From Priestia megaterium NBRC 15308 = ATCC 14581 (GTDB taxonomy: Bacteria; Bacillota; Bacilli; Bacillales; Bacillaceae_H), in assembly GCF_000832985.1 (NCBI RefSeq), contig NZ_CP009920.1, positions 930,001-994,000 of the forward strand: 64,000 bases of DNA. Direction: 5' to 3'. The notes beneath the pieces are model-generated. The model searched no databases, had not been told where the DNA came from, and saw nothing but the letters and a program-made list of their open reading frames with translations. How positions within the stretch are numbered: position 1 is the first letter of the stretch; every line of letters starts with the position of its first letter. The position numbers and the translations under genes are program-made. Of the stretch, positions 59,166-60,950 are shown piece after piece.

Positions 59166-59927
59166 CTAAATTATTTTACTTAAACTCGTACGCATTTTAA
59201 ACAGCGCTTTCGAATGAATTTGAGAAATACGTGAAGTAGATAGCCCTAACAGCTGTGCGATTTCTGTAAAAGTCAACTCTTCTTTATAGAATAATGAAAC
59301 AACGAGCTGCTCTTTTTCATTTAGCTGCTCGATAACTTCAGCAAGCTCTTGATATCGTTCGTCGTTAATTAGCTCCTCTTCAGGAGAGAGCGTTTTTTCA
59401 TCTTTAATCGTATATTTTTGTTCTCCATCTTCATACTCTTTCGGCTGTTCTTCCATTGACAACACGTTAGCTAAAAAGCCTTCATTCATCGTATGAACGA
59501 CATCTGCTTCTGTCATGCCTACTTCTTTTGCAACCTCACTTGGTGCAACTCTGCGCAAGTATCTTTGTTCAAGTGCTTCTGTTGCTTGCTCAATCCTTTT
59601 CGTCTTTTCCCTTGCGCTTCTTGATAACCAGTCTTCTTTACGAAGCCCGTCTATTATCGCCCCTCGAATTCGAAAAGACGCATATGTATCAAACTTTAAG
59701 TCTCTACCGTAATCAAACTTTTCCAAAGCATCGTAAAGACCGATTAACCCTAAACTACGAAGCTCTTCTTTATGAATATTTTTCGGCAGCCCCACGCTAA
59801 TCCGCTGAACGTGATAGTTAACGAGCGGCATATACTTTTTAACAAGCATGTTTCCCGCATGTGAGTCTCTCGTCTCTCTCCATTCCTGCCAAATTTTATG
59901 TTCTTCAACTTCTTGTATACTTTTCAA
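59166..59927 (-). CDS. sigD: RNA polymerase sigma factor SigD
   Basis: 253 aa, the FliA/sigma-28 type, directing flagellin, chemotaxis and autolysin genes. Seen: region 2 (KYMPLVNYHVQRIS, EELRSLGLIGLYDALEKFD, FDTYASFRIRGAIIDGLR), region 3 (SEVAKEVGM), and region 4 helix-turn-helix (LTFTEIAQLLGLSTSRISQIHSKAL). It starts with TTG (59925-59927); AGGAG lies ten or so bases upstream. It sits between cheD and swrB, as in B. subtilis. Confidence 0.98.
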   Translation of the reverse strand: MKSIQEVEEHKIWQEWRETRDSHAGNMLVKKYMPLVNYHVQRISVGLPKNIHKEELRSLGLIGLYDALEKFDYGRDLKFDTYASFRIRGAIIDGLRKEDWLSRSAREKTKRIEQATEALEQRYLRRVAPSEVAKEVGMTEADVVHTMNEGFLANVLSMEEQPKEYEDGEQKYTIKDEKTLSPEEELINDERYQELAEVIEQLNEKEQLVVSLFYKEELTFTEIAQLLGLSTSRISQIHSKALFKMRTSLSKII

Positions 59928-59976
59928 GGGTCTTTCAACTCCTTTTTATAGCGCTATTAAACGATCAGAGCGCGCT

Positions 59977-60471
59977 TTATATCGTTTTTATCCCTTCGTT
60001 AATCGTACGAACCTTTAAAATAGCCGTTTGAGGATCAAATTCAATTGTGCGTCCGTTGTGTCCTCCTGTAGCTTTTGCTGCAATTTCTACACTGTTTCTA
60101 TGCAGCTCTCTCTCTACTGCTTGAACATTTCGAAGGCCAATTCGCATGACATCATTTCTTGGTTCAAATTGAAACATCTGCGCGCCTCCTGCTATTTTTG
60201 CTTTTAACAATTTTCTATGTGCGCCTTGTTTAATCAACATATTTACCAAATCAAAAATGGCTGTATCTGCATATTTAGCTCTATTAAAAGGACATTTAGC
60301 TCCGCTTGAATCCGGAAGCATCACATGAGCGAGCCCAGCTACTGAGTGAACAGAGTCATAAACGACAACTCCTACACATGATCCTAATCCCGCTGTTCGA
60401 AGCACTGCGGGTGCATGTGTAACATTCATCTCGGCAATTCCTACCTTAATCACTTGTTTATCATCTCTCAC
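59977..60471 (-). CDS. cheD: Chemoreceptor glutamine deamidase CheD
   Basis: 164 aa. Deamidates receptor glutamines; in B. subtilis it also binds and stimulates the phosphatase CheC, which is absent here. Seen: the catalytic Cys-His-Thr set, C32 in GLGSCVGV, H49 in GLAHVMLP and the KYADTA threonine. It starts with GTG (60469-60471); the start overlaps the end of a short leftover frame by two or three bases. AGGAG lies about ten bases upstream. Confidence 0.97.
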   Translation of the reverse strand: MRDDKQVIKVGIAEMNVTHAPAVLRTAGLGSCVGVVVYDSVHSVAGLAHVMLPDSSGAKCPFNRAKYADTAIFDLVNMLIKQGAHRKLLKAKIAGGAQMFQFEPRNDVMRIGLRNVQAVERELHRNSVEIAAKATGGHNGRTIEFDPQTAILKVRTINEGIKTI

Positions 60472-60509
60472 GATTCTTCAACTCCTAGAACCTTCAGCGT
60501 GATATCCAT
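60468..60509 (-). pseudogene. Short frame between cheW and cheD, possible cheC remnant
   Basis: An ATG-initiated frame of 13 codons (MDITLKVLGVEES) ends in a TGA that overlaps the cheD GTG. It lies exactly where cheC would end in B. subtilis. The tail resembles the short C-terminal helix of CheC-type proteins in length and character only, so the assignment is a guess. No other CheC sequence is visible. Confidence 0.3.
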
Positions 60510-60521
60510 TATTCGTTTGAC

Positions 60522-60950
60522 TCACTGGAGGTGGTCTTCTAAAGAGAGCACTTTAGGTAAATTTAGAAGAACAATTAAACGGCTATCTACTTTAACGACT
60601 CCGTTTAAGTATTCAACAGCTGTTCCTTCAACTGTTTCAGGCACTGAAGCAATCGTTTTTTCATCAATATCCACTACATCATTTGCCGCATCGACAATCA
60701 AACCTGCTTCTACATCATTAAGACGAACCATAATAATACGTGTCAGCTCATGGTTAAGCTGTTCTTGCAAGTTAAAACGAGTGCGCAAATCAATAATCGG
60801 TGTAATAACACCGCGAAGGTTAATAACACCTTTTACATATTCTTTTACTCCAGGAACGCGTGTTATGTGCTGAATCTTTTCAATCGACTGCACTTCTTCT
60901 ACTGAGATTCCGTACTCCTCGTCTCCCAATTGAAACACAATAATTTTCAT
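60522..60950 (-). CDS. cheW: Chemotaxis coupling protein CheW
   Basis: 142 aa. Bridges receptors and CheA. Seen: the N-terminal FQLGDEEYGISVEEVQSIE, the RVPGVKEYVKGVINLRGVITPIIDLRTRF core, and VDAANDVVDI. It follows cheA by about 30 bases in the operon. In B. subtilis cheC comes next; here cheD follows after a 50-base gap. Confidence 0.97.
   Translation of the reverse strand: MKIIVFQLGDEEYGISVEEVQSIEKIQHITRVPGVKEYVKGVINLRGVITPIIDLRTRFNLQEQLNHELTRIIMVRLNDVEAGLIVDAANDVVDIDEKTIASVPETVEGTAVEYLNGVVKVDSRLIVLLNLPKVLSLEDHLQ

Follow-up and report, generated by a model that had tools for sequence, protein, structure and literature searches.

The closest described counterpart of the locus studied here is the CheC/CheD/CheY-P system of Bacillus subtilis (PMC3513319). 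Going by the portions of that paper drawn on here, the two share the order cheA, cheW and then cheD, a CheD with the Met-Phe pair, and FliY; they differ in that cheC is missing from our locus, which leaves the loop without its CheC arm. The same portions name species with CheD and no CheC, including Agrobacterium, Borrelia, Caulobacter and Pseudomonas, and describe how M101 and F102 were picked as residues conserved in CheC species and not in CheC-less ones; a change at F102 reduced binding to CheC and to a receptor fragment alike. Our locus resembles these species in having CheD without CheC, but those species are said not to conserve M101/F102, whereas Met-Phe is present in 11/11 of the CheC-less CheD proteins aligned here. 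For Priestia megaterium itself the absence of cheC is already known, since the excerpted text of PMC11302069 reports that P. megaterium genomes (59 strains in the tree) revealed no cheX, cheC or cheZ; for strain B1 the paper lists cheD and fliY, with cheW and cheD on adjacent locus tags. The genome analyzed here is like those strains in having no cheC and like B1 in having cheD and fliY, and the excerpted text holds no discussion of the cheW-cheD junction, of the short frame within it, of cheC-bearing relatives or of repeated loss. A literature search, judged by title, returned nothing on this junction or on repeated cheC loss in the order.

The junction between cheW and cheD

We analyzed a 64,000-nucleotide stretch of the genome of P. 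megaterium NBRC 15308 = ATCC 14581 (hereafter the window), in which Pfam matches give the minus-strand gene order cheB, cheA, cheW, cheD and a sigma-70 factor (sigD). The features at and around the junction are as follows:

60522..60950, minus strand: cheW, an open reading frame with PF01584 (E 1.9e-36) and a TGA stop at 60524-60522
60510..60521, minus strand: 12-base spacer 3' of the cheW stop, with 4/12 sites differing among the four CheC-less species of the genus
60468..60509, minus strand: 13-codon ATG frame, MDITLKVLGVEES, whose stop overlaps the cheD start; a possible cheC remnant
60482..60486, minus strand: AGGAG, the likely ribosome-binding site of cheD as read from the sequence, 10 bases before its GTG
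59977..60471, minus strand: cheD, intact, with a GTG start, PF03975 (E 1.2e-32) and Gly-Gly-Ala-Gln-Met-Phe retained
59166..59927, minus strand: downstream sigD-type sigma factor gene with a TTG start and Pfam sigma-70 regions 2, 3 and 4; gene order conserved

The layout recorded in a first-pass annotation of this DNA, with cheW ending at 60522, the cheD GTG at 60471 and a 13-codon frame whose TGA overlaps that GTG, was confirmed from the sequence. Between the cheW stop and the cheD start lie 50 bases, with no CheC encoded within them. The frame opens with an ATG at 60509, 12 bases past the cheW stop and in the cheW reading phase, and its TGA (60470-60468) overlaps the cheD GTG (60471-60469) as GTGA; inspection of the sequence revealed no clear ribosome-binding site for this ATG. 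The AGGAG of cheD falls in the short-frame codons for L-G-V, and the GGAG or GGGG in the CheC tails of nine family relatives likewise lies in L-G-V codons. As a separate observation, AGGAGTTGAA is present ahead of both cheD (60477-60486) and sigD (59934-59943), a repeat that is possibly due to chance because the binding-site motif is part of AGGAGTTGAA.

Genome-wide search for cheC

The cheD product carries a CheD domain (PF03975, 112.7 bits against a curated cut-off of 25), while its best NCBIfam equivalog, NF010015, falls under its own cut-off (164.3 versus 251). A PF04509 search of the genome gave no match, and thus no CheC domain, at the 13 residues of the short frame. Across the 7 contigs of the genome (G000), three profile searches found FliY alone: PF04509 at E up to 10 matched a single 385-aa ORF twice and no cheC; a profile built from six CheC sequences of relatives had the same ORF as its sole match, again revealing no cheC; and CheX (PF13690, E up to 1) returned this ORF only, with no cheX. 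The ORF, which lies outside the window (G000:C6), is a FliY by NF005995 (515.8 bits; cut-off, 218) and by its FliN domain (TIGR02480, 104.6 against 84.05). The first-pass annotation had claimed that cheC is missing and that CheD would work without its usual partner unless a cheC-like gene stood elsewhere; these searches, together with the cheW-cheD gap, bear out both points, and no intact cheC was found in the 7 contigs. The genome therefore lacks, as cheC was not found, the pair of cheC and cheD that marks a B. subtilis-type CheC/CheD adaptation system.

Probable loss of cheC within the genus

CheD is present in 9/10 genomes of the genus. Five of the ten (G001, G003, G004, G005 and G009) carry cheC between cheW and cheD, as an open frame of 217-221 aa with CheC domains, and four (G000, which is the genome of the window, G002, G006 and G007) have cheD without cheC, their PF04509 matches being confined to the 385-aa ORF. 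The remaining genome, G008, lacks both CheD and any PF04509 match and therefore, by that test, has no FliY either. An extra CheX-like protein of 152 aa occurs in 2/10 genomes (G004:C8:106167-106397 and G005:C5:79269-79484). Among 80 CheD loci from named genomes, CheC is encoded immediately upstream of CheD in 76; the other four are L052 (P. aryabhattai) and L129-L131, three metagenome bins from distant groups. G000, G002, G006 and G007 form one clade in 4/4 gene trees (gene trees and distances were drawn from 23 genomes, 8 of them chosen from the 80 CheD loci).

A deletion is the natural reading of these data because cheC is absent here, yet fills the cheW-cheD place in half of the genus genomes, and the distribution of cheC and cheD over the genus, combined with the single clade, makes a single ancestral deletion, shared by the group, the simplest account. 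On this comparative evidence a deletion between cheW and cheD probably removed cheC in the lineage ancestral to the P. megaterium / P. aryabhattai group, while cheD was kept and would be read from AGGAG. As no form intermediate between an intact cheC and the gap seen today turned up, the deletion is an event that we infer.

Apparent repeated loss of cheC in the order

An even sample of the order comprised 199 genomes, 179 of them with CheD; tallies at this level are per-genome hit counts, in which four or more PF04509 hits do not of themselves equal a real cheC. Three or fewer hits were counted in 7/179 CheD genomes (G000, G007, G050, G131, G176, G185 and G201). For G010 and G013, which belong to the family, and for G050, G131, G176, G185 and G201, the above-cut-off PF04509 matches fall in FliY-sized frames of 379-419 aa, with an additional 179-aa frame carrying a PF04509 match in G185. 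The cheW-cheD junctions of G010, G013, G131, G176, G185 and G201 contain no cheC, and in G050 a cheB-like frame stands directly upstream of cheD, with no cheW there. Same-family relatives of each CheC-less lineage either have at least four PF04509 hits or carry cheC at the place. Judged from these comparisons, cheC appears to have been lost at least five separate times with cheD kept, in the window group, G010/G013, G131, G176/G201 and G185, and G050 may represent a sixth loss. Two other genomes of the sample, G080 and G141, have no CheD match and four PF04509 hits each, and possibly encode CheC without CheD.

Origin of the short frame ahead of cheD

For comparison with CheC C termini, 83 CheC proteins were collected, of which 82 could be anchored, giving 72 distinct tails. 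Tails from the family include ..IFKALGVQIDE, ..IFKALGVTDYDS, ..IFTALGVADYDS, ..LFQALGVPLHG, ..LFYALGVADYV and ..IFSSLGVQ, and the short frame has K-x-L-G-V in common with some of them; the two residues ahead of the K place are I in 52/72 and F in 67/72 of the distinct tails, and T and L in the short frame. A ten-residue position-specific score as high as that of the frame was reached by 4/278 controls (places in the window with an in-frame GGAG) for G000, by 6/278 for G002 and by 25/278 for G007, and the seven residues before L-G-V alone were matched by 31/278, 75/278 and 75/278, respectively; among plain six-frame windows, 48/75443 reach the score of the short frame. At the DNA level, the bases ahead of GGAG were compared with the cheC ends of nine relatives; identity was as high in 5 to 70/345 controls for G000, a range that depends on length and reference set, and in 72 to 190/345 for G007. 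End-anchored DNA alignment of the G000 junction to cheC ends, using 77/85 loci (8 were without an assigned cheD start), was equalled by 18/293 controls with the ten best partners, 17/293 by the mean and 51/293 with the single best partner, one control itself resembling a cheC end. In a second end-anchored set, which used 82 cheC ends, scores as high were reached by 11 and 9 of the 350 starts that have a binding site and by 1 and 0 of a 175-start subsample lacking one, and 5/82 genuine cheC ends scored as low as the window junction. The possibility that MDITLK derives from DVLKEVGN at the CheC N terminus was tried and rejected: in local DNA alignments to nine cheC genes the best places were scattered, and for the window 1/9 genes (L016, an internal stretch) had 2/200 shuffles as high, the others 16 to 154/200.

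Other CheC-less lineages have junctions that look less cheC-like, with 84 to 319/350 controls as high. One of them, G131, is like the window in having a short cheW-cheD frame whose stop lies over the cheD start, and differs in that its frame (L150 1248-1358) has 36 codons from an ATG, its own GGAGGAGG ahead and an 8-base overlap with cheD, the overlap commonest for intact cheC (46/77 wider loci). Its product resembles a cheC end (SRLFIASSAVVFYE versus LPLFKSLGVSSYE of L157). As a cheC remnant, however, the frame did not hold up at the DNA level, where its score against cheC ends was ordinary (84/350 controls as high); it may still be a remnant with a conserved role. With regard to phase, that of cheC to cheD in 9/9 family relatives differs from that of the short frame, so that an indel would be required for simple descent from a junction of the genus type. 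In the wider set the phase of the window occurs in 23/76 CheC loci and a 4-base overlap in 11/77, and the closest parallel is L123 (Bacillus sp. SG-1), where cheC ends in LGVES with its TGA over the cheD GTG.

The short frame is intact in 4/4 CheC-less species of the genus, as MDITLKVLGVEES twice, MDITLKFVGVEES and MDITLKFLGVEES. Among these species 2/38 bases from ATG to GTG vary, versus 31/133 four-fold sites of cheW and cheD (Fisher p 0.011, a rough figure, the species being few and related). Both changes in the 38 bases alter an amino acid and thus give no sign of selection on the peptide, and the low variation suggests that the initiation region, not the peptide, is constrained. An RNA hairpin masking the cheD binding site, with CTCCAG at the cheW end set against CTAGGAG, was also considered and rejected, as fold energies equalled those of shuffles in 4/4 species (z -0.34 to 0.54).

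These data bear on three accounts of the junction other than the plain one of a lost gene. An assembly or annotation artefact concealing an intact cheC has nothing in its favor and deserves next to no credence, given that the same junction occurs in four genus genomes, that of P. aryabhattai B8W22 (G006) among them, and that PMC11302069, in its excerpted text, finds no cheC in any P. megaterium genome compared. The account given in the first-pass annotation, in which cheC was deleted and the 13 codons are its true 3' end, kept for coupling cheD translation to an upstream frame, divides into two parts: the deletion is well borne out by the absence of cheC here and its presence at this place in the cheC-bearing genus genomes, while the identity of the 13 codons is not established, and we regard it as possible but rather doubtful. 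In its favor are the K-x-L-G-V shared with CheC tails, few binding-site controls scoring as high either by residues or in the two end-anchored alignments, and next to none of the starts without a binding site; the less cheC-like junctions of other lineages, the wider loci with the same phase and 4-base overlap, and the low variation of the 38 bases point the same way. Relatives' tails are not unlike the short frame, as they carry x-A/S-L-G-V at the matching place, but the match breaks down ahead of K, the single best alignment partner is equalled by more of the controls, the G007 version is matched by many more of them, the phase is unlike that of the family relatives, and the interspecies changes bear no mark of peptide selection. 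Because the matching codons double as the cheD binding site, the tail match proves nothing, and the CheC-tail evidence leans only weakly toward a remnant.

Alternatively, the bases before cheD could be a new ribosome-binding site that arose after the deletion, with the short frame a chance frame over it, a reading to which we give close to an even chance. ATG frames 8-40 codons long overlap the start by exactly 4 bases at 9/292 control starts and by any length at 19/292 (controls being defined by a ribosome-binding-site-like motif followed by 60 open codons rather than as confirmed genes, with the window junction and the cheC-cheD junctions removed), so that the short frame by itself is unusual, not striking. 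The CheC likeness is also restricted to the binding-site codons, and the cheD starts of G010/G013, G176/G201 and G185 are little like cheC ends. On the other side, AGGAG stands almost at the position of GGAG in the relatives (its G lies 14 bases ahead of the start, theirs 13; the distance is 13 in 31/36 wider loci with GGAG, with GGAG not found in 40/76), and no other CheC-less junction tested resembles cheC more closely than that of the window.

Under the favored reading, loss of cheC by deletion with cheD kept, the deletion would have taken essentially all of cheC, and the AGGAG that sits ten bases ahead of the GTG of cheD would have been left by it or have arisen soon after. A stretch of about 10-20 bases ahead of cheD may be genuine cheC sequence, a reading that does not extend to the whole 13-codon frame. 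Translation of cheD would start from this site, perhaps aided by ribosomes finishing cheW or the short frame. CheD, whose activity is predicted, would have stayed under selection as a receptor-binding deamidase, FliY would remain as the CheC-type phosphatase of CheY-P, and the feedback loop of CheC, CheD and CheY-P, taken from the B. subtilis model, would be absent.

CheD after the probable loss of its partner

The CheD alignment covered 77/80 loci (L129-L131 were left out), with L052 not counted. The 11 CheC-less rows that retain the Met-Phe pair (G000, G002, G006, G007, G010, G013, G050, G131, G176, G185 and G201) come from six lineages at most; among CheC-bearing rows Met is present in 85/85 and Phe in 84/85. 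Since the pair stays in CheC-less rows and the published F102 change also hit receptor binding (PMC3513319, in the portions drawn on here), receptor binding would be what keeps the Met-Phe face; recent loss or common descent in the order is an alternative reading of its retention.

CheD is conserved in the window group, with 3 departures at 64 conserved columns, and 19/85 CheC-bearing rows have at least 3; more departures are seen in G010 (11/64), G013 (18/64) and G050 (28/64). Variation in cheD falls at 24/164 third positions versus 10/328 first and second positions. Specially fast evolution of CheD after the loss was considered and not seen, its mean distance ratio being 1.19 versus 1.27 for CheW, 1.52 for the CheA C terminus and 0.89 for SigD. 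For G010/G013, the distance ratios were 1.98 for CheW, 3.59 for the CheA C terminus and 1.05 for SigD; CheW and CheA C-terminus distances that exceed those of SigD in two CheC-less lineages may point to a changed signalling array. The G013 CheD (L023) departs from that of G010 after ..SKDVG and ends early in a frameshift-like manner, which is either real or a sequencing error.

Implications for CheD function

As a gene-loss scar the cheW-cheD junction is in itself unremarkable, and that P. megaterium lacks cheC had been reported before. A more elaborate proposal, which we hold to be unlikely, is that the last codons of cheC were kept as a translated leader setting CheD output by re-initiation after cheW, and that in the CheC-less lineages of the order CheD activates receptors free of feedback, keeping its Met-Phe face for them and not for CheC. 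Retention of the pair in every CheC-less row suggests that this face serves receptor binding and that Met-Phe is no predictor of the presence of CheC. The independent lineages that have lost cheC would be natural tests of CheD function without its regulator.
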